DNA of 64,000 bases from Sphingobacteriales bacterium (GTDB lineage: Bacteria > Bacteroidota > Bacteroidia > Sphingobacteriales > Sphingobacteriaceae). The DNA is taken from positions 186,001-250,000 of the forward strand of contig JANXOD010000016.1 in NCBI GenBank assembly GCA_025353765.1. The letters run 5' to 3'. Of the stretch, positions 2,048 through 11,457 are shown piece by piece; position 1 is the stretch's first letter; each line of letters opens with the position of its first letter. Made by a program: the position numbers and the translations under genes. Below the pieces are notes generated by a model. It was not told where the DNA came from, searched no databases, and saw nothing but the letters and a program-made list of their open reading frames with translations.

Positions 2048-3052
2048 TTATATAAACAATTTAATAATAGCGTAAATAAGTGCAGCCAAAACAGCCGAGA
2101 CCGGAATGGTTAATACCCATGCCCATAACAAACTAATGGTTATACCCCATCTTACGGCAGAAACCCGTTTACTCAAACCCACACCTATAATAGCGCCTGT
2201 GATGGTATGTGTAGTGGACACCGGGATTTTAAAATGCTCGGTCATAAATAAGGTAAGTGCTCCGGCAGTTTCTGCTGCAACACCTTCTAAAGGGGTAACT
2301 TTCGTGATTTTTGTTCCCATGGTTTTAACAATTCTCCAACCTCCGCTCATCGTTCCGGCGGCAATGGCTGTGTAGCAGGCGATAGGAACCCAGGTAGGCA
2401 TATCGTTAATAGAGGGTATAATTTTCTGGGAAATTAAAGCTACCGAAATGATTCCCATTACTTTTTGCGAATCATTGCTTCCATGCCCGATGCTGAATAA
2501 TGCAGATGAAACCAATTGTAATTTCCTGAACCACCATTCTGCTTTAGATGGATTAGCGTTTCTGCAAATATTGATGATAATAACATTAATGACATAGGCA
2601 ATCACCATCCCTATAAATGGAGCTAAAAATATGTAAAGAACGATAAGGCCAATAACATCCATCCGCGGAGCACTAAAACCTCCATGAGCAATTGCTGCTC
2701 CTGCAAAGGCTCCTATTAAGGTATGCGAAGAACTTGATGGAATACCAAACCACCAGGTCAATAAATTCCATGATATGGCGGCTAGCAATCCGGCAAGAAT
2801 AACATACAGCGTTATAAATTCTTCATGAACAGATTTGGCAACAGTATTTGCTACTCCAAATTCACCGAAATAATATTTTGCGATGAAGTAAGCTATGAAA
2901 TTGAAAAAAGCTGCCCAAATAACTGCCTGAAAAGGTGTTAATACTTTTGTTGAAACGATAGTAGCAATTGAATTCGCTGCATCATGAAAGCCATTACTAT
3001 AATCAAATATTAATGCCAGTATGATTACAACAATTAATAAAGTAGAAACCAT
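2048..3052 (-). CDS. Inorganic phosphate transporter, Pit family
   Basis: This is a low-affinity phosphate/cation symporter of the inner membrane (PiT family, PF01384), 334 residues long. The duplicated family signature is visible: GFHDAANSIATIVSTKVL near residue 21 and GHGSNDSQKVMGI near residue 190. Further marks are the conserved SSSHTLIGAFAGAA and STTHTITGAIIG segments of the two halves, and about ten membrane spans. It lies 23 bases downstream of the DUF47/PhoU-like gene, an arrangement typical of Pit operons in which the DUF47 protein modulates the transporter. A Pho-box-like promoter ahead of the DUF47 gene probably drives both, suggesting phosphate-responsive expression (inference). 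Confidence 0.93.
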   Translation of the reverse strand: MVSTLLIVVIILALIFDYSNGFHDAANSIATIVSTKVLTPFQAVIWAAFFNFIAYFIAKYYFGEFGVANTVAKSVHEEFITLYVILAGLLAAISWNLLTWWFGIPSSSSHTLIGAFAGAAIAHGGFSAPRMDVIGLIVLYIFLAPFIGMVIAYVINVIIINICRNANPSKAEWWFRKLQLVSSALFSIGHGSNDSQKVMGIISVALISQKIIPSINDMPTWVPIACYTAIAAGTMSGGWRIVKTMGTKITKVTPLEGVAAETAGALTLFMTEHFKIPVSTTHTITGAIIGVGLSKRVSAVRWGITISLLWAWVLTIPVSAVLAALIYAIIKLFI

Positions 3053-3075
3053 AATATTAAGTTAAAATCTAAAGT

Positions 3076-3723
3076 TTAGGCGTGTTTAACTAAGATTGAC
3101 TCCAATACATTGGCTGCATCTTCACACATATCTGTTGCGGTTTCTAATGCAGAAAGTACTTCTTTATATTTGATGAGATTCACAGCATCTTTTTCATATT
3201 CAAAAAGTTCGCCTACAGCTTTATCAAATACATAATCAGCTTGGTTTTCGATACTGTTAATGCGAACACATGAATCAGCAATGTTATGAATATTTTTAAG
3301 ATTACGCAGTTCACGGATGGCTTTATCCAGATCCTGACAAGCCTGTAATATGAGTTCTGATAACTCTTTAATAGGCTGGGTAATTATAGTCACCTTATAC
3401 AGAAACATTCTGCTGGCAGAGCCATGAATATAATCTGCAATATCATCAATGGCGCTTGCAAGTTGATGAATATCTTCTCTATCAAATGGTGTTATAAAGT
3501 TCTTGCTTAATTCCAGGTGGATCTGGTGTGTAATTTCATCACCCACATGTTCTAAATTTTCAATTTCCTTAAATAACTCATTACGACGGGTTATATCTTC
3601 TGTATGAACAGCTTCAGTAAGGCGTTGTGCCATTACAATTAAGTTAGCACTATCTTGTTCAAAAAGAGGGAAAAATTTTTTGTCTTTAGGGACGAAGTAT
3701 TGAAAGATACTGTTTAATGACAT
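3076..3723 (-). CDS. DUF47 / PhoU-like Pit accessory protein
   Basis: This 215-residue, all-helical protein belongs to the DUF47 (PF01865, PhoU-like) family. The N-terminus MSLNSIFQYFVPKDKKFFPLF, the E-x3-D helices (for example ENLEHVGDEITHQIH) and DREDIHQLASAIDDIADYIH are characteristic. Such proteins are usually co-encoded with Pit transporters and are thought to regulate them at the cytoplasmic face. It starts the two-gene operon with pit (23-base gap). Just upstream is a promoter with a good Bacteroidetes -7 box and two TTAACA direct repeats (3744-3777). The start codon at 3723 fits that promoter. Confidence 0.9.
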   Translation of the reverse strand: MSLNSIFQYFVPKDKKFFPLFEQDSANLIVMAQRLTEAVHTEDITRRNELFKEIENLEHVGDEITHQIHLELSKNFITPFDREDIHQLASAIDDIADYIHGSASRMFLYKVTIITQPIKELSELILQACQDLDKAIRELRNLKNIHNIADSCVRINSIENQADYVFDKAVGELFEYEKDAVNLIKYKEVLSALETATDMCEDAANVLESILVKHA

Positions 3724-3743
3724 AATGCTATTAAAAATGTAAA

Positions 3744-3777
3744 CAAAACTACTATCCCAATGTTAAGTTAATGTTAA
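3744..3777 (-). promoter_or_regulatory. Pho-box-like promoter of the DUF47-pit operon
   Basis: Read on the minus strand, TTAACA occurs twice (3777-3772 and 3766-3761), exactly 11 bp apart, with the repeat TTAACATTAAC/TTAACATTGGG. It is followed nine bases later by TAGTTTTG (3751-3744), a perfect match to the Bacteroidetes -7 consensus TAnnTTTG. The repeats cover the place where a -33 element would sit, as Pho boxes do in activated promoters. The 11-bp-spaced TTAACA pattern resembles the Bacillus PhoP box. That it binds a PhoB-type regulator here is inference from the downstream phosphate genes. Confidence 0.6.
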
Positions 3778-3796
3778 CATTGAGCTTATTAATACT

Positions 3797-4822
3797 TTAC
3801 TTTATTTTTTCCAGGGTAAATCCGAATGTAGAGCCTATTCCGTCTGTACTTCTAACCGTTATCGTTTGCTGATGAGCTTCTATAATATGTTTTACAATAG
3901 CTAAACCCAAACCCGACCCGCCAATTTTTCGGGACCGGCTTTTATCTGTACGATAAAAACGTTCAAATATTCTGGGAAGATATTTTTCTTCAATTCCAAT
4001 TCCATCATCTGTCACTTCTGCTAAAATTTGATCGTGCAGTTCAAAAGTTTTAATGGCTATGGTGCCGTTTTCTTTACCATATTTAAGGGAATTATCAATT
4101 AAATTAACCACAACCTGTCGTATTTTTTCTTTGTCTGCTTTTACCCAAGTGGGATAATTATATTTTTCTTTAAAAATGAGATCGATCTTATGTTCTTTTG
4201 CCTTTAATTCCATAGATTCTAAGACTTCGTCTATCAATTCGGCCAAATCAAATTTTTCATAGTTTATAGGAATTTCTCCGCTTTCTAATTTTGATATTTC
4301 ATCCAGATCTTTAATTAAAAAACTAAGCCGGTCTACATTTTTAGCTGCTTTCTCTAGAAAGCGTTTCCCCATCTCTGGATCATTAATTTCTCCATCCTGT
4401 AAAGCTTCAATATAACCCTGTATCGCAAAAAGAGGCGTTTTAAACTCATGTGAGATATTGGATAAAAACTCCCTTCTAAATTTTTCCTGTTGTTTTAAAA
4501 GATCAATTTCAGATTTTTTATCCCGGGCCCATTCCTTTACTTCCTGCTCTACATCATTAATCGGATCTGAACTTACATATTCACCTAAAGCATCTTTTAA
4601 ATCTTTACCCAATTTTAAATTATGAATGAGTTTATAGATCAGTTTTATCTTGCTGTATACATATTTTTCTATCATGTAATAGAAAACAGTAAAACTTACA
4701 ATTAATGCAATGAAAAACGTTAAAAAAAGATCATACCAATTATGCTGAAAATAAAAATTAATTGAGCCCAAGCATACTGCTACAGCCAGGGCATTTAAAA
4801 ATACAAGCACACTTAGTTTCAT
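3797..4822 (-). CDS. Sensor histidine kinase, PhoR-like
   Basis: This 341-residue membrane kinase has two N-terminal transmembrane segments (about residues 4-24 and 31-51) with almost no periplasmic loop, then a HAMP-like linker. The HisKA domain carries the phosphorylated His125 in SNISHEFKTPLFAIQGY. The HATPase domain shows the N box (VVNLIDNSLKYG), DDGIGI and GGSGLGLAIV. The short loop and architecture suit PhoR, and the next operon downstream encodes phosphate transport, so a phosphate-sensing role is plausible. No response regulator is adjacent. It starts 15 bases after the FAD oxidoreductase, so it is probably transcribed with the polyketide operon as well. The PhoR assignment is inference; the kinase call is firm. 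Confidence 0.85.
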   Translation of the reverse strand: MKLSVLVFLNALAVAVCLGSINFYFQHNWYDLFLTFFIALIVSFTVFYYMIEKYVYSKIKLIYKLIHNLKLGKDLKDALGEYVSSDPINDVEQEVKEWARDKKSEIDLLKQQEKFRREFLSNISHEFKTPLFAIQGYIEALQDGEINDPEMGKRFLEKAAKNVDRLSFLIKDLDEISKLESGEIPINYEKFDLAELIDEVLESMELKAKEHKIDLIFKEKYNYPTWVKADKEKIRQVVVNLIDNSLKYGKENGTIAIKTFELHDQILAEVTDDGIGIEEKYLPRIFERFYRTDKSRSRKIGGSGLGLAIVKHIIEAHQQTITVRSTDGIGSTFGFTLEKIK

Positions 4823-4837
4823 AGGGGCAATTTACTA

Positions 4838-5956
4838 TTAAAATGGTTTGCCATGAGTTTTTTTCACCATCCTTTGTGTTAAAGACGGGAAGGTTTTCAA
4901 CAGAGAAACAGCCATATCGGAAACTGTATTATTTCCAAATAGTTTCTGAATAAACCTGCCTGTTTTTAAACGGCTGGCAAATTGCTTTTCCCATTGATGA
5001 TGATAGGTTTTTTCTAAAATTTCTCTATTCAATAATTCTGAATCAGTTTTTAAATGATCTGTAATAGTTTCTGCAATTAGTTTACCAGAATGGATAGCCA
5101 TGGCCATTCCGTTGCCGCACAAGGGGGTGATCATTCCCGCAGCATCGCCACAAAAAAGGATATGATTATCCACCAGCGATTTTCGTTCAAATGTAATTTC
5201 ATTTATGGTTTCCGGCTTGTTAAACAGGAATTCTGAATTTTTAAACATATGTTTTAAATGGACATTTTTTAAAAGTATTTGCTCTTCCATTTCAGGAATG
5301 TTACCATGCTTTTTAAGATTTTTTGTTTCTGTAAGATAACATAAACTGTACTTATCATCTTCAATTTTACAGACACCGCAATAACCACCTTCAAAATTAT
5401 TCAACTGAATTAGATCATTGGGGAAATCTGTTTTGATATGATATTTTACACCCATATACGGACTTCGGTTATAAAAAAAAGAGCGGTTTAATTTTTGATC
5501 CAGATTAGCTCGTTTACCATAAGCACCTATTAAAATGGATGTATTTATTGAGGAATGATTAGCTAATTTTATTTCAAATTCATTCTCATCAAAAAGTACA
5601 TCAGTTGCTTTATCAAAAATAAAAACAACACCCGACTGCACTGCTTTTTGATATAGGTAATGATCGAATGTATACCGGCTTATTCCGAAGCCCCCTAAAT
5701 CAAGAGGTGCATATACTATTTTTCCGGCAACCGAACTCACTGCCAGACGGGATAATTTTGATGGCTCAAGTTCCTGGATATTCAGGTCTAATGACTTAAG
5801 AAAAGGTAAAACTTCATTAGAAATATATTCTCCACAAACGCGATGAAAGGGATATTGCTTTTTCTCAATAATAACCACCTCAAACTCCTGACGATTTAGA
5901 GCTAGAGCACTGGTTAATCCGGCTAAGCCACCACCTATTATGACTACTTTGCTCAT
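4838..5956 (-). CDS. FAD-dependent oxidoreductase of the geranylgeranyl reductase-like family
   Basis: The N-terminus VVIIGGGLAGLTSALAL is a Rossmann FAD-binding fold (GxGxxG form), followed by the glutamate of VVIIEKK. CGDAAGMITPLCGNGMAMA near residue 275 is the second FAD-contact motif of this flavoprotein group. CGEYIS near residue 41 also fits geranylgeranyl-reductase-like and hydroxylase enzymes. At 372 residues the length is normal. It is the third gene of a tight operon with a type III PKS and a methyltransferase (gap 6 bases), so it probably oxidises or hydroxylates the polyketide-derived ring, as SrsC does in the Streptomyces phenolic-lipid pathway, or reduces a prenyl chain. Which of these it does cannot be read from the sequence. 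Confidence 0.82.
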   Translation of the reverse strand: MSKVVIIGGGLAGLTSALALNRQEFEVVIIEKKQYPFHRVCGEYISNEVLPFLKSLDLNIQELEPSKLSRLAVSSVAGKIVYAPLDLGGFGISRYTFDHYLYQKAVQSGVVFIFDKATDVLFDENEFEIKLANHSSINTSILIGAYGKRANLDQKLNRSFFYNRSPYMGVKYHIKTDFPNDLIQLNNFEGGYCGVCKIEDDKYSLCYLTETKNLKKHGNIPEMEEQILLKNVHLKHMFKNSEFLFNKPETINEITFERKSLVDNHILFCGDAAGMITPLCGNGMAMAIHSGKLIAETITDHLKTDSELLNREILEKTYHHQWEKQFASRLKTGRFIQKLFGNNTVSDMAVSLLKTFPSLTQRMVKKTHGKPF

Positions 5957-5962
5957 AAATTT

Positions 5963-6673
5963 TCAAGCTTTTTCTGAAAAGGGTAGAATGATAACCTGCC
6001 ATCTAAATGCCCACATCCATTTGAGTGTGTAATTTCTTATCCCACCTTTTTCTAACATGATCTTTAGTTCCTTCTTTTTGAAACTTCGCAGTACCGAAAC
6101 TTTAGAATCATGCTTAACCATTTCTGATTTGGAAAAGAACCGTGTTAATATCCCAATAGAGTAATAGGCAAACCAATGGCGATGCAGGTCGTTTATGATG
6201 ACTGAATACCTGGCACAATCATTCATTTTTTGAATTAGTTTTATCCAGCTTTCATCCTGAAAATGATGTGTAAAAAGACTTGAAATAACAATATCAAATT
6301 GATTCGTTTTTAAACTATCATTCATTACATCTTCTAAAATATAAGATATTTCTGGATAGTCTTTAGACTTTTTTCGGGCATATTCTATAGCAGAAGTGGT
6401 AGCATCTACACCAATAAGGGTGATTTTGAGATTTCTTTTCCGAGCCCATTTTGCAATTACTCTCAGCGAATCCCCACCTCCACAACCCCAATCGCTAATG
6501 GTCATTCCATTCTGAATTTTTAATCGCCGGAAGGCATCAAAAAACACGCTGTAGCCGCCTAATAATTTATTTACCACTTCCAGTTCATCCATTATGGGAT
6601 CAATAATGGTATGATCTAATGAAAAATCATCCATCATCTCATTTTCAACGCTTCTATGACTAAAATCGGGCAT
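5963..6673 (-). CDS. Class I SAM-dependent methyltransferase of the polyketide operon
   Basis: This is a 236-residue protein with a class I methyltransferase fold. Motif I is ISDWGCGGGDSLRVIA (near residue 59), motif II IGVDATTSAIEYA, and a post-motif IVISSLFTHHF. It begins one base after the PKS stop, so the two are translationally close. By analogy with SrsB of Streptomyces it may methylate the phenolic product of the PKS. Substrate and O- or C-methylation are unknown. An alternative start lies at MMDDFSLD, but the first ATG abuts the PKS gene and is preferred. Confidence 0.83.
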   Translation of the reverse strand: MPDFSHRSVENEMMDDFSLDHTIIDPIMDELEVVNKLLGGYSVFFDAFRRLKIQNGMTISDWGCGGGDSLRVIAKWARKRNLKITLIGVDATTSAIEYARKKSKDYPEISYILEDVMNDSLKTNQFDIVISSLFTHHFQDESWIKLIQKMNDCARYSVIINDLHRHWFAYYSIGILTRFFSKSEMVKHDSKVSVLRSFKKKELKIMLEKGGIRNYTLKWMWAFRWQVIILPFSEKA

Positions 6674-6674
6674 A

Positions 6675-7787
6675 TTAATTACGTTGAAGGATCATAGATT
6701 CTACTGTTAAGCCCGGTCCAAATGCAAAACTTAAAATATTCTCTTTTTTCTTTACCTCGGGATCTTCCAAAAGTTTCTTTAAAACAAATAGTATCGTTGC
6801 TGATGACATGTTACCATAATCACGCAAAACAGCATAACTAAATTTATTTTTTTCTTTCGTAAATCCCAATGCTTCTTCGGCGGCTTCCAATATTTTCCGT
6901 CCTCCGGGATGAACTGCAAAACGACTGATTTGATCAAAGTTTAATCCGGCTTTAGCTAAAAGCTGATCTGTTATCGGTTTAATATGGCGTTTAATTTGTT
7001 TGGATACTTTAGCGGTGAGCTTCATTTCAAAACCGGTATCACCTACATACCAGCCCATTTCATCCTTTGCTTCGTGTACAAATTCGGTGTAAAATGTATC
7101 TAATGTGAGGTAGCTATTTATGCCTGTTTTGTGTGCGATATTTTCAACCAGCACTGCGGCAGCTCCGTCAGAAAAAAGAGAATTAGCAACCCAGTTATCT
7201 AATGTACTTTCTTTCTGAAAATGTAAGGTACAAAGTTCAATAGACACAATTAATACTTTTGCATGAACATTTGCACGGCAAATATAATCTGCCACTTTTA
7301 AGGCATTTAATGAACCATAACATCCCATAAAATTAATACAAGTACGTTCGGTATGTTTATTAAGGCCTAATTTCGCCACCAATTCAATATCAATTCCGGG
7401 AGCATGCATGCCTGTGCAACTTACTGTAATTAGATGAGTGATATCTTTTGTAAGATCCTTTTTAAAGGAGCCTAAGCAGTTTTTTGCAGCAGTTGCGGCA
7501 ATATTGATAGCTTCGTTCTGGTATATTTTAAGCCTTTGACTGGTACCTGGAAAGGGCTCCATGTTGGGGGTATTGGCAAAAAAAGTGTGATTGTCTTTTT
7601 TATTTTTGCCAAAATCCGGGATTACCGAATAGCGATAATCAATACCGGAGTGATCATAGATCTGCTTTAATCGCGAAGTATGAGTTTCATTCAACCCAAA
7701 GGCGCCAACCATAAAATGATATATCGTTTTTTGCGGAATTTTATATGGGGGATTGGCGGTGCCAATCGCAGTAATGCAGCTGCTCAT
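6675..7787 (-). CDS. Type III polyketide synthase
   Basis: This 370-residue enzyme belongs to the chalcone/stilbene synthase family. The catalytic triad is complete: Cys156 in INFMGCYGSLNALK, His293 in RFAVHPGGRKILEA and Asn326 in YGNMSSATILFVL. The C-terminal FGPGLTVESMIL is the family's usual GPG loop. Type III synthases condense malonyl-CoA onto a CoA starter (in bacteria often a long acyl chain) to give pyrones, resorcinols or phloroglucinols. It opens an operon with a methyltransferase and flavoprotein and is divergent from a UbiA prenyltransferase, suggesting a prenylated, methylated phenolic or quinone lipid (inference). The starter unit and product cannot be told from the sequence. 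Confidence 0.92.
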   Translation of the reverse strand: MSSCITAIGTANPPYKIPQKTIYHFMVGAFGLNETHTSRLKQIYDHSGIDYRYSVIPDFGKNKKDNHTFFANTPNMEPFPGTSQRLKIYQNEAINIAATAAKNCLGSFKKDLTKDITHLITVSCTGMHAPGIDIELVAKLGLNKHTERTCINFMGCYGSLNALKVADYICRANVHAKVLIVSIELCTLHFQKESTLDNWVANSLFSDGAAAVLVENIAHKTGINSYLTLDTFYTEFVHEAKDEMGWYVGDTGFEMKLTAKVSKQIKRHIKPITDQLLAKAGLNFDQISRFAVHPGGRKILEAAEEALGFTKEKNKFSYAVLRDYGNMSSATILFVLKKLLEDPEVKKKENILSFAFGPGLTVESMILQRN

Positions 7788-7870
7788 TCTATAAATAAAG
7801 TATTAAATATTGGAATTTGCTAATAGATAAATCAAGAAAAAAAAGAGATTGCATTATTGTACTTTAGGGC

Positions 7871-8758
7871 ATGAAAATAGTTTGGGCAATTATTCCAACA
7901 CGTTCGGCATTCATCCATTTGAGATTTCTTTTTTCTTTTTTTCTAATGCCTGTGTATTTTTTTGCGTTAAGCCAGGTCCCGATAATTAATATAAGTCATG
8001 CTGTATTAGTTTTTATTTGCTGGCATTTTTTTGCGTATCCGGCAAGTAATGGTTACAATAGTTATTTTGATAAAGATGAAGGCAGCATCGCTTTAATTGA
8101 AAAACCGCCAACGGTTGATAAAAGCCTGTATTACCTTTCATTATTTATGGAGTTTATGGCTATTCTGCTGGGCTTAATGGTTAGTTTTCCATTTGGTTTT
8201 GCAGTGTTAATTTATGGCGTACTGTCTAAATTATATAGTCACCCGGCAACCCGATTAAAAAAGTATCCCATCTTTAGTTTTTTGATTGTATTCTTTTTTC
8301 AGGGAGCTTTTATTTACTGGACAAGTTATGCAGCTATTTCGGGACTACGTATTTTTTCATTAGGGGATGCGCTCTTTCTGTATGCCGGTTTAATTTGTTC
8401 ATGTTTGATTGGTGCATCTTATCCGCTTACGCAGATCTATCAACATGAAGAGGACAGCAAACGAGGCGACAAAACACTAAGTATTGTACTGGGCATAAAA
8501 GGATCTTTTTGGTTTGCCGGCCTTTTTTTTGGTTTAGCTACTATCCTGCTATTCGTTTACTGGTCTAACTTGGAGCAACTAAAAAACTTCTGGCTATTTC
8601 TGATATGTGCTCTTCCTGTTTTCGGCGTTTTTATAAATTGGTTTATACAAACCTGGGAAGATGAAAAAAAGGCAAATTTTAAAAACATGACCCGAATGAC
8701 CATGATAAGCGGGGGTATGATGCTTATTTATTTTATGCTGCTCAATCTGCTGAAATAA
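7871..8758 (+). CDS. UbiA-family prenyltransferase
   Basis: This 295-residue membrane protein has about eight hydrophobic spans and the two aspartate-rich regions of UbiA enzymes: ASNGYNSYFDKDEGS (about residues 56-70) and QIYQHEEDSKRGDKTLS (about residues 188-204). UbiA enzymes attach prenyl chains to aromatic rings within the membrane. It is divergent from the type III PKS with an 83-base gap, the spacing of a shared regulatory region, so the acceptor may be the PKS-derived aromatic (inference). It does not look like the menaquinone (MenA) or haem O (CyoE) enzymes, though this was judged by eye only. A hairpin at 8841-8875 lies downstream. Confidence 0.82.
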   Translation: MKIVWAIIPTRSAFIHLRFLFSFFLMPVYFFALSQVPIINISHAVLVFICWHFFAYPASNGYNSYFDKDEGSIALIEKPPTVDKSLYYLSLFMEFMAILLGLMVSFPFGFAVLIYGVLSKLYSHPATRLKKYPIFSFLIVFFFQGAFIYWTSYAAISGLRIFSLGDALFLYAGLICSCLIGASYPLTQIYQHEEDSKRGDKTLSIVLGIKGSFWFAGLFFGLATILLFVYWSNLEQLKNFWLFLICALPVFGVFINWFIQTWEDEKKANFKNMTRMTMISGGMMLIYFMLLNLLK

Positions 8759-8840
8759 TAAAACGTATTATCGTATTCCATTCTGCGTAAAATTCGATTA
8801 AATAAGGCGACTTATTATATATCTGTTTTGCTATTTATCG

Positions 8841-8875
8841 AAAAAGGCCGCAGCTTTCAATTGCTACAGCCTTTT
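8841..8875 (-). terminator. Intrinsic terminator for the GloVer-repeat gene
   Basis: On the minus strand the arms GGCTGTAGC and GCTGCGGCC form nine pairs including two G-U wobbles, with an 8-base loop and a following run of U. On the plus strand the wobbles become mismatches, so the hairpin favours termination of the minus-strand gene ending at 8905. It separates the convergent UbiA gene and the secreted repeat protein. Confidence 0.65.
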
Positions 8876-8904
8876 ATTCTTCAATACGTTATGGTTTTAC
8901 TCTT

Positions 8905-10632
8905 TTATTGGACAAGAACCACATTAGAAAGATTTAAGCCGCCTTCTCCGTTTATGCGTAATAAATATGAACCTGAAACCGGTTTGAAGTTTAAGGTATT
9001 TTCGATACCCTCTCTTACTTCCAGTGTTTGCTTATGCAGGATTTTCCCGGACATTGTAGTAAGTACCGCTTTTACTTCTTTCCCGGTATAGTTACCTAGT
9101 TTAAATTTAATGACATTGGTTACCGGGTTTGGAGAAACCTGTAATGACGCAACAAACGCGTGGCCTAAGTTAAATTTAACTGCTTTAGTTCCTTTGTCAG
9201 CAGCCTGACCATTTAAATCTACCTGTATTAAGCGGTAATAATTAACCCCATTTTCTGGATTATGGTCATAAGTAGAATAACGTTGCGGTGCTGATGTAGT
9301 ACCATGGCCTTCTATATTAGTACCCATTTTATCGAATTTAGTGCCATCTATAGAGCGTTCTATTATAAAGTGGCTGTTGTTTTGTTCTGATGCGGTAGCC
9401 CATTCTATTTCAACTTCGTTATTTTCTACTTTTGCAGTAAAACTGGTTAAGCTAACCGGTAAAACAGCATCGTCAACAACAGTAAGATCGCCATCCGGAA
9501 ACCTTCCCTGGGTGTTGTTGCTCGAATCAAACTCATGTAATATAGAATACGGAGTTCCGGCAGCAGGATCATATGAAAAAATTACCCCACCATTCTTAGA
9601 TCCGCCTTGCTGGGTCATACCATAAAATATATTATTGAATTCAATTACACTACCTAAAGGACTAGCGCCGTTACTATCTTTAAAATTTTCGAGGTTCGTT
9701 ATACTACCAGGATTGGCCAGATCGTAAGAAAAAAGTGTTCCGGATGTTCCTCCGGCAGAAGTCATACCATAGAGCTGGCTACCGTCTATTGTTAAACTAC
9801 CTGAGGGAAAATTTTCAGAAGGGTCAAAATCAATCAAATGGGTATAACCAACCTTAGGGTTAAATGAAAAGATTACCCCAAAATTATTATTCGAACCTCC
9901 GGTAGAGGTCATACCATACAATGTTCCATTAGACAGTGTTAAACTACCTTGAGGAGTGGACCCATCTGCAATATTATTAACCTGCCCAAAATTAAATACC
10001 TGAGTTATTTGAGAGAAGCCAAAGTCGTATTCAAAAATTGTACCCTGTAACTGGCTTCCTCCGCCAGAGTTCATGCCATATAATTTATCGTTTAGCTCCG
10101 TTAAATTCCCTAATGGGGCATTACCGGTAGTATTTAATTCAAAACTATATTTTTTAAAGTAAGTATCGTCTGAAGGATTATAAGAAAAGATGGTCCCATC
10201 ATTGGTATCCCCACCTGCGGAAGTTGTACCATACAATTTACCGTCTGATGCTAGTGTTAAACTGCCCGAAGGGGAAATGCCATCATTATTCGATGCGCCG
10301 AACTCATACAATATAGCATAAGGCTTATTTATATTAAGAGTAAGGTCATACGAAAAAAGAACACCACCACCATTCGCTCCTCCAGAAGAAGTCATACCAT
10401 AAAGTTTATTGCCCAGCAGGGTTAGGTTACCTTTAGGATAAGCTCCCTCTACCGAGGAGTCAAAATCATGTAATATAGCATAATTGCTGCCATCAAGATC
10501 ACATTTAAAAATAACCCCATTATCGTGTTGGCCGCCTTGTAACGTCATACCATATAGGTGCTGCTGGGCGTGTGCAAAATTAAAAGTTAGAATATTTCAT
10601 ATAATTAAACAAGAGAGTAAAGAATGTTTCAT
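8905..10632 (-). pseudogene. GloVer-repeat T9SS cargo protein with an in-frame stop in its signal peptide
   Basis: The frame carries about seven GloVer-type repeats of roughly 50 residues (LYGMTSSGG...GVLFSYD), then an Ig-like segment and a C-terminal T9SS type A sorting domain (VSPNPVTNVIKFKL to the end). The only ATG inside the open stretch is at 10548, within the first repeat, and gives no signal peptide. Extending upstream in the same frame gives an ATG at 10632, MKHSLLSCLII, a TGA at 10599-10597, and then NILTFNFAHAQ running straight into the repeats. So a normal signal peptide is interrupted by one stop codon. Either the gene is dead, the stop is a sequencing error, or it is read through. 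Without the signal peptide the sorting domain would be useless. Confidence 0.8.
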
Positions 10633-10779
10633 AATTAAGTTTTTAAGTTTAATAAAAATAAGAATAATATTTAGATTTATATTCTACTAACTTCCTGCTT
10701 ATATTCTTAATGTATCTTTTATTAGTTCTTTCAATAAGATAGTTTCAAATTACTAGCGTAGCCAAAATAGAAAAGAGCA

Positions 10780-11457
10780 TTATTGTTTTCCATTCCATTC
10801 ATCATAAAATTGTTTCAAATAGGTTTCCATAAAATGATGACGCTCTTCGGCGATTTTTTTACCTGTTGCCGTATTCATTTTATCTTTAAGCAGTAGCAAT
10901 TTTTCATAAAAATGATTAATCGTAGGAGCAGAAGAATTTTTATATTCCTCTTTATTCATATTTAAATTAGGGGCTATTTCAGGATTGTATAGTTCCCTGT
11001 TTTTAAATCCTCCATAGGTAAAAGCACGGGCAATTCCAATGGCTCCGATAGCATCTAAACGATCTGCATCCTGAACAACTTCCAGTTCTTTTGAATGAAA
11101 TTTAACTTCTCCCAAACTGGCTTTGAAAGACACGTTAAGAATGATTTTTTGAACATGTTCTATGATCTCTTCTCCCACATCTATGCTTTTCAAATAATCT
11201 CCGGCTTTCTTGGGGCCGATTTCTTCATCTCCATCATGAAATTTACTGTCGGCAATATCATGAAGCAGAGCAGCTAACTCTATCACAAACAAATCAACAT
11301 CTTCGCTTTTTGCAATGAGTTTTGCATTATTCCAAACCCGTTCAATATGCCACCAATCGTGTCCTGATTCTGCACCTTCAAGGGATTGACGAACAAAATC
11401 TGCTGTAAGTAAAATTTTATCATTCACTTTCTTTGGGGTCTCTTTTACTGCCTTCAT
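10780..11457 (-). CDS. HD-domain phosphohydrolase, YedJ/YpgQ-like
   Basis: This is a metal-dependent HD-superfamily hydrolase. SGHDWWHIERVWNNA supplies the first His, ELAALLHDIADSKF the HD pair, and VVQDADRLDAIGAIGIARAF the distal Asp, the pattern of the YedJ/YpgQ group (nucleotide phosphohydrolases of uncertain substrate). The ATG at 11457 (MKAVKETPKK) is preferred over the one at 11523, because the upstream 22 residues would lie wholly inside the preceding gene and do not look like part of the family. Even so it overlaps the upstream methyltransferase by 38 bases, suggesting translational coupling. Confidence 0.8.
   Translation of the reverse strand: MKAVKETPKKVNDKILLTADFVRQSLEGAESGHDWWHIERVWNNAKLIAKSEDVDLFVIELAALLHDIADSKFHDGDEEIGPKKAGDYLKSIDVGEEIIEHVQKIILNVSFKASLGEVKFHSKELEVVQDADRLDAIGAIGIARAFTYGGFKNRELYNPEIAPNLNMNKEEYKNSSAPTINHFYEKLLLLKDKMNTATGKKIAEERHHFMETYLKQFYDEWNGKQ

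Follow-up and report, generated by a model that had tools for sequence, protein, structure and literature searches.

We analysed a 64,000-nucleotide stretch (hereafter the window) of the genome of a Sphingobacteriales bacterium (contig JANXOD010000016.1) and found that positions 4838-8758 hold four intact open reading frames (ORFs), namely a minus-strand operon for a flavin adenine dinucleotide (FAD) oxidoreductase, an S-adenosylmethionine (SAM) methyltransferase and a type III polyketide synthase (PKS), and a plus-strand gene of the UbiA family. Judging from the genes, this cassette represents a pathway that is widespread in Bacteroidota and whose product is probably a methylated lipid, phenolic or quinone, with an isoprenoid chain attached. 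Its first three enzymes belong to known types, and their constant fourth partner, an unusual membrane protein of the UbiA superfamily, apparently has no place in any version of the pathway described so far. In a large Bacteroidota clade this UbiA protein is a near-obligate, dedicated partner of the PKS. The original prediction, made from the bare sequence, had already placed a four-gene cluster at exactly this span, with the operon divergent from the UbiA gene, and the ORFs agree with it on both points.

All four products scored above the curated Pfam cut-offs: the PKS with 105.7 and 89.9 bits to Chal_sti_synt_N and Chal_sti_synt_C (cut-off 27), the methyltransferase with 51.4 bits to Methyltransf_25 (cut-off 27), the oxidoreductase with 39.2 bits to FAD_binding_3 (cut-off 22) and the UbiA protein with 71.4 bits to PF01040 (cut-off 34.2). 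The operon is tightly packed, with 1 bp between the PKS and methyltransferase genes and 6 bp between the methyltransferase and FAD genes. The host is a 2.83-Mb Bacteroidota genome whose cassette genes have their nearest named relatives in the Sphingobacteriaceae (Daejeonella, Pedobacter, Paradesertivirga). Because the same gene set recurs across Bacteroidota, we regard it as beyond chance.

A homologue of the PKS was found in 179 of 395 Bacteroidota genomes and a match to the UbiA profile in 59 of 390, and every one of these 59 also had the PKS (Fisher P 2e-23, with kinship ignored); counted by genus, 28 of 168 were UbiA-positive and 87 of 170 PKS-positive. From a scan of named genomes, which gave at least 565 relatives of which the best 80 were used, we called a UbiA ORF in 79 loci. 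The PKS lay within about 10 kb of UbiA in 62 of these and all four genes were present in 43; a neighbourhood survey of such pairs had been suggested along with the original prediction. In a maximum-likelihood PKS tree of 65 rows, drawn from the genome survey by PKS, the enzymes whose genomes carry UbiA group in a single clade (87/95 support), with one change of state. The same clade comprises 94 rows of a 139-row tree, and UbiA accompanies all 94 (in locus L145 at 10001-10855); these rows were partly fetched via UbiA and are therefore not an independent sample, unlike those of the 65-row tree. Inside the clade the linkage of PKS and UbiA has been broken repeatedly with neither gene lost, and their arrangement follows family lines: in Sphingobacteriaceae UbiA and the PKS gene diverge, and in other families UbiA lies upstream of the PKS, methyltransferase and FAD genes and points the same way.

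Some related loci fall outside this pattern. A second type of Bacteroidota PKS (L086-L093) forms a separate clade (100/100 support), carries the resorcinol-type Trp discussed below in eight of eight members and has no UbiA partner, adjoining instead a small membrane protein that we judged by eye to resemble an ICMT-type methyltransferase. A PKS with an ICMT-type methyltransferase is the arrangement of B. subtilis BpsAB. One genome of the same family as the window, without this UbiA (G080, locus L094), has at 6146-11018 the same FAD and methyltransferase genes beside a type III PKS of a different clade, followed by dehydratase-like, ketosynthase-like and acyl-carrier-like genes; from its gene content this is another kind of biosynthetic cluster, in which the tailoring pair has been put to use again. 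Two metagenome-assembled genomes labelled as planctomycetes (Candidatus Anammoxibacter, loci L122 and L127, sharing the isolate prefix OFTM) have a UbiA-PKS-methyltransferase-FAD cassette that falls inside the Bacteroidota clade, reflecting either lateral transfer or contamination.

Turning to the PKS itself, the residues of its catalytic triad (Cys156-His293-Asn326) stand at the numbers originally given and are kept in 93-94 of 94 relatives; together with the domain scores they place the protein in the chalcone/stilbene synthase family. Its structure model (pLDDT 94.3) came closest among solved structures to Steely1, the M. marinum type III PKS, PKS11 and PKS18 (Z 48-49, with ties; root-mean-square deviation (rmsd) 1.7-2.4). 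Whether a resorcinol or a pyrone is formed has been linked to the position of ArsB Trp281 and ArsC Gly284 (PMC6274091, PMC9927152). The window PKS has Trp246 at this position, as in ArsB and in place of the Gly of pyrone-forming ArsC; in the alignment it falls on the Trp engineered into ArsC in crystal structure 3vs9 (Gly in the companion structure 3vs8), and it is invariant in 94 of 94 clade members. The same Trp is also found in other sampled Bacteroidota and planctomycete groups of type III PKSs, and therefore predicts resorcinol chemistry and does not set the clade apart. In an active-site alignment Cys124, Cys186, His189, Trp246, Ser328 and Phe356 were common to planctomycete relatives, which are mostly 32-40% identical to the window PKS over their best matches. 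Planctomycete PKSs expressed in C. glutamicum, including enzymes from methyltransferase-oxidoreductase-PKS operons, gave pentadecyl- and heptadecylresorcinol (C15/C17) (PMC10896814); our sampled planctomycete genomes, several of which share the methyltransferase-FAD-PKS order, may or may not include those enzymes. Given Trp246 and the active-site residues it has in common with planctomycete PKSs, a group with tested alkylresorcinol synthases, we predict that the window PKS is an alkylresorcinol synthase.

The host genome has four UbiA-family genes including the one in the window. One is a heme O synthase, CtaB (251.8 bits to TIGR01473, cut-off 210.3), which adjoins CtaA-like and oxidase-subunit genes; another is MqnP-like (285.8 bits to TIGR01475, cut-off 180.8); the remaining one gave a weak match with no family assigned. 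The genome also has two genes of the MqnA/MqnD family, which point to a futalosine route to menaquinone. The window UbiA scored far below the cut-off of every NCBIfam UbiA model, including those of the CtaB, MqnP and MenA families. Its first motif, N63SYFD67KD69, has the canonical NxxxD form, with N63 and D67 in 44 of 44 relatives. The second, Q188IYQ191HEED195 (consensus QxYQHxxD, with Gln191 and D195 each in 44 of 44), reads QHxxD in place of the canonical DxxxD: counting back from D195 without gaps puts Gln191 at the place of the first Asp, a gapped alignment puts His192 there, and neither puts an Asp there. N63, D67, D69, K130 and D195 are all invariant across the 44 relatives. The AlphaFold model of the protein (pLDDT 95.5, pTM 0.92) superimposed on A. 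fulgidus UbiA bound to dimethylallyl diphosphate (DMAPP) and Mg (4tq4) with Z 22.6 and rmsd 3.4 over 271 residues, while sequence searches of the PDB with the protein and with the UbiA profile returned no match. By its sequence the window UbiA is a distinct subfamily with an altered second metal motif. A sister subfamily in a distant lineage (family f24, L218-L223) reads YNSWWDKDEGPIGGLKxPPK ... SQIYQxEED, sharing the YNSxxDKD and SQxxQ motifs, and although unlinked to its PKS-methyltransferase operon it occurs in 34 of 45 PKS genomes. The membrane prenyltransferase of the original prediction stands as a UbiA-superfamily protein, by domain score and modelled fold, that is partnered with the PKS; it is a constant of the clade and not an oddity of this genome, and prenyl transfer is a function we infer, since the second catalytic motif is non-canonical.

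The tailoring enzymes are less sharply defined. The methyltransferase matched model NF004851, which carries no functional assignment, below its cut-off of 243 (E 1e-44, 152.8 bits). The flavoprotein belongs to a broad group that includes geranylgeranyl reductases, UbiH-type hydroxylases and halogenases, and has a conserved FHxVCGEYxSNE (CGEY) motif. It fell below every NCBIfam cut-off shown (e.g., 94.7 bits to the geranylgeranyl-reductase model, cut-off 158.8) and so could not be placed with any of the hydroxylases, reductases or halogenases of that library; the PxxYxWxFP-type motif of geranylgeranyl reductases was not seen in it. Homologues of both proteins from planctomycete operons were weak matches (about 25-84 bits). 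The counterparts in the pkq operon O-methylate an alkylresorcinol and oxidise it to a quinone (PMC9927152).

From these elements we lean towards a phenolic-lipid pathway whose likeliest product is a ring-prenylated, methylated alkylresorcinol or quinone. The PKS would extend a medium- or long-chain acyl starter with malonyl-CoA and close the chain to a 5-alkylresorcinol, as its residues and relatives predict; the methyltransferase, by comparison with similar operons, would O- or C-methylate the ring; the flavoprotein would hydroxylate or oxidise it towards a methoxy-hydroquinone or quinone, on the model of the polyketide-quinone and hierridin operons; and the UbiA-family protein would use a prenyl diphosphate to add an isoprenyl chain to the ring, within the membrane, to give a prenylated alkylresorcinol or alkyl-quinone. 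The product may serve as an alternative redox carrier, a membrane lipid or a secreted compound. That it is a compound not yet described, as first proposed, is not supported as stated and is not demonstrable from sequence.

Four points weigh against this pathway. UbiA catalysis may differ from the canonical reaction, since the second metal motif lacks its first Asp. The flavoprotein could be a reductase and not a hydroxylase. The PKS cavity, for which the original prediction had proposed a comparison with a long acyl starter in mind, agrees with PKS18 at Cys186 (PKS18 Cys205), but has Phe190 where PKS18 has Ala209, and sequence conservation of the long acyl tunnel is therefore only partial. Finally, quinone profiling is routine in Bacteroidota, and the type reported is menaquinone; a second quinone, if abundant, would probably have come to notice, and the product should therefore be scarce, conditional or not a quinone. 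A further proposal, that an obligate PKS-UbiA pair, whose UbiA subfamily uses a Gln-containing metal site, makes a so far unrecognised Bacteroidota lipid class of polyketide-derived (alkyl) quinones bearing an isoprenoid chain, possibly a second, conditional redox carrier beside menaquinone, is one we put forward only tentatively.

We consider it rather unlikely that the product is a polyketide-headed isoprenoid quinone, in which a short-chain orcinol-like phenol would replace 4-hydroxybenzoate, UbiA would add a long polyprenyl chain, and the methyltransferase and flavoprotein would finish a ubiquinone-like lipid. The enzyme classes do parallel UbiA/UbiG/UbiH, Steely1 is the top structural match of the PKS by VIA-align Z (tied with mycobacterial enzymes), and Phe190, as in chalcone synthase (a row used solely as a position check), narrows the tunnel; however, the active-site residues match the planctomycete clade, whose tested PKSs take long starters, Cys186 keeps the PKS18 residue, and such a quinone, if abundant, would be expected in routine profiles. 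Somewhat less probable again is that the UbiA homologue serves the pathway without canonical aromatic prenylation (e.g., in a terpene-cyclase-like reaction, on another acceptor, or in transport or as a scaffold). The Gln in place of the first DxxxD Asp, recurring in the f24 sister subfamily, and the low scores against known UbiA families would suit this idea, whereas the five invariant residues and the modelled UbiA-transferase fold argue for a prenyltransferase. That UbiA is an accidental neighbour from an unrelated pathway would fit the 17 of 79 UbiA loci in which no PKS was found in the fetched stretch, which reached at most about 10 kb to either side, but we think this improbable: when 18 genomes, most of them without a nearby PKS, were examined for a predicted distant copy, 17 had a PKS elsewhere (45-65% identity) and in the eighteenth a contig end interrupts the flavoprotein gene, and the co-occurrence in all UbiA-positive genomes, the single PKS clade and the persistence of the pair through changes of gene order also speak against it. 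The proposal that would have undone the original prediction, namely that the window UbiA, sharing their superfamily, is the organism's menaquinone (MenA) or haem O (CtaB) prenyltransferase, we reject as having practically no chance of being right, as the genome has its own CtaB, MqnP-like and MqnA/MqnD-family genes.

Table 1. Coordinates of the cassette and its adjoining kinase gene in the window
Feature	Positions	Strand	Remarks
Histidine kinase (PnpS/PhoR/WalK-like)	3797-4822	-	15 bp after FAD gene; outside core cassette
FAD-dependent oxidoreductase, 372 residues	4838-5956	-	FAD_binding_3; predicted ring hydroxylase/oxidase
Class I SAM-dependent methyltransferase, 236 residues	5963-6673	-	NF004851/PRK06202-like, distantly UbiE/UbiG-like
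Type III PKS, predicted alkylresorcinol synthase, 370 residues	6675-7787	-	Catalytic triad, Trp246, Cys186
PKS/UbiA divergent intergenic region, 83 bp	7788-7870	none	Presumed site of both promoters
UbiA-superfamily membrane protein, 295 residues, separate subfamily	7871-8758	+	PF01040, motifs, fold

The surroundings of the cassette (Table 1) vary among the related loci. Ten Mucilaginibacter loci have a YceI-family gene (PF04264, 109 bits) between PKS and UbiA. YceI proteins are described as polyisoprenoid-binding. For the PKS operon of 'S. ferox', too, a gene of lipid/isoprenoid-binding type has been reported (PMC10896814). This is suggestive of an isoprenoid-bearing product, short of proof. 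In the window (2048-4822) and about 18 related loci a PhoR/PnpS-like histidine kinase, DUF47 and a PiT phosphate transporter come directly after the cassette; the kinase is possibly co-transcribed with it or there is possibly a phosphate link. This synteny is confined to Sphingobacteriaceae loci and absent from other families, and therefore does not explain the pathway; we rejected a phosphate-regulon link as its explanation, and most of the supposed PstB neighbours proved to be unrelated ABC proteins. A flexirubin/aryl-polyene link, suspected from neighbours of 490-550 residues in some loci, was likewise rejected, these being Band_7, MarR and other unrelated genes. About 13 loci of Cytophagales/Cyclobacteriaceae type (among them L160, L170, L142, L174, L162 and L171) have a conserved lipoprotein-like gene of 180 residues directly after the methyltransferase gene, and beside the UbiA gene of the window (8905-10548) is a tandem GloVer-repeat protein with a type IX secretion system (T9SS) type A sorting domain, predicted to be secreted.

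With this cassette a large group of Bacteroidota type III PKS regions gains a core of four genes, a prediction of its chemistry and a partner enzyme that can be tested. Should the product prove to be a prenylated alkyl-quinone, a new lipid class would be added for Sphingobacteriaceae, Cytophagales and Chitinophagaceae, of which many are common in the environment, and enzymology would gain a UbiA subfamily whose metal site is altered. A taxonomy paper on Bacteroidota (Reichenbachiella; PMC10752948) lists type III PKS regions that resemble known clusters little or not at all. We found no description of the PKS-UbiA pair in Bacteroidota in the open-access literature (most subscription journals and paper supplements lie outside this coverage), and a survey of isoprenoid quinones in bacteria, published in 2026, does not contain the word 'polyketide'. 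A systematic Bacteroidota PKS-UbiA pathway with a non-canonical UbiA appears to be undescribed in open-access papers, since those found hold only two bacterial precedents, a prenyltransferase in Raphidiopsis and a UbiA gene in Micromonospora.

The archaeal UbiA homologues AfUbiA (4tq4) and ApUbiA (4od5) resemble the modelled window UbiA in fold (Z about 22) and differ in sequence (13-16% identity) and in their second motif, which is DxxxD and not QHxxD. Plant cannabinoid and daurichromenic acid pathways also join a type III PKS resorcinol to a UbiA-superfamily membrane prenyltransferase, which is an analogy only, as plant genes, resorcylic acid acceptors and canonical UbiA motifs are involved there; an orcinol synthase of this type of pathway is treated in PMC5037138. 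Known examples of the PKS/methyltransferase/flavoprotein module come from Actinobacteria, Cyanobacteria and Planctomycetota (PMC10896814, PMC8086630). The adjacency of these three genes, which characterises srs/pkq/hid-type operons, is found in the window and recurs in Bacteroidota. The SrsABC-like module of the original prediction holds up as an SrsABC/PkQ/Hid-like set: it has the enzyme logic of Streptomyces griseus SrsABC, compared by enzyme class and not by sequence, and differs in having UbiA. It shares with pkqABC (M. smegmatis; Streptomyces sp. MNU77) the PKS-methyltransferase-oxidoreductase operon and the resorcinol-type Trp, whereas pkqABC is from another phylum, has no UbiA partner reported in the part of the source at hand and has a demonstrated product where that of the window cassette is predicted. 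With hidABC (hierridin, cyanobacteria) and the planctomycete operon it has the same three enzyme classes, and with the latter the PKS active-site residues, but both have another gene order and no UbiA. A hid-like cluster of Raphidiopsis mediterranea is reported to include a prenyltransferase (family unstated) and is called unique (PMC8086630). Finally, at the loseolamycin locus of Micromonospora endolithica, the title compounds of which are alkylresorcinols, the gene table places a methyltransferase gene two positions away from a type III PKS gene and a UbiA-family gene three positions away, but with an intervening acyl-CoA dehydrogenase and no flavoprotein hydroxylase listed nearby (PMC7587189).

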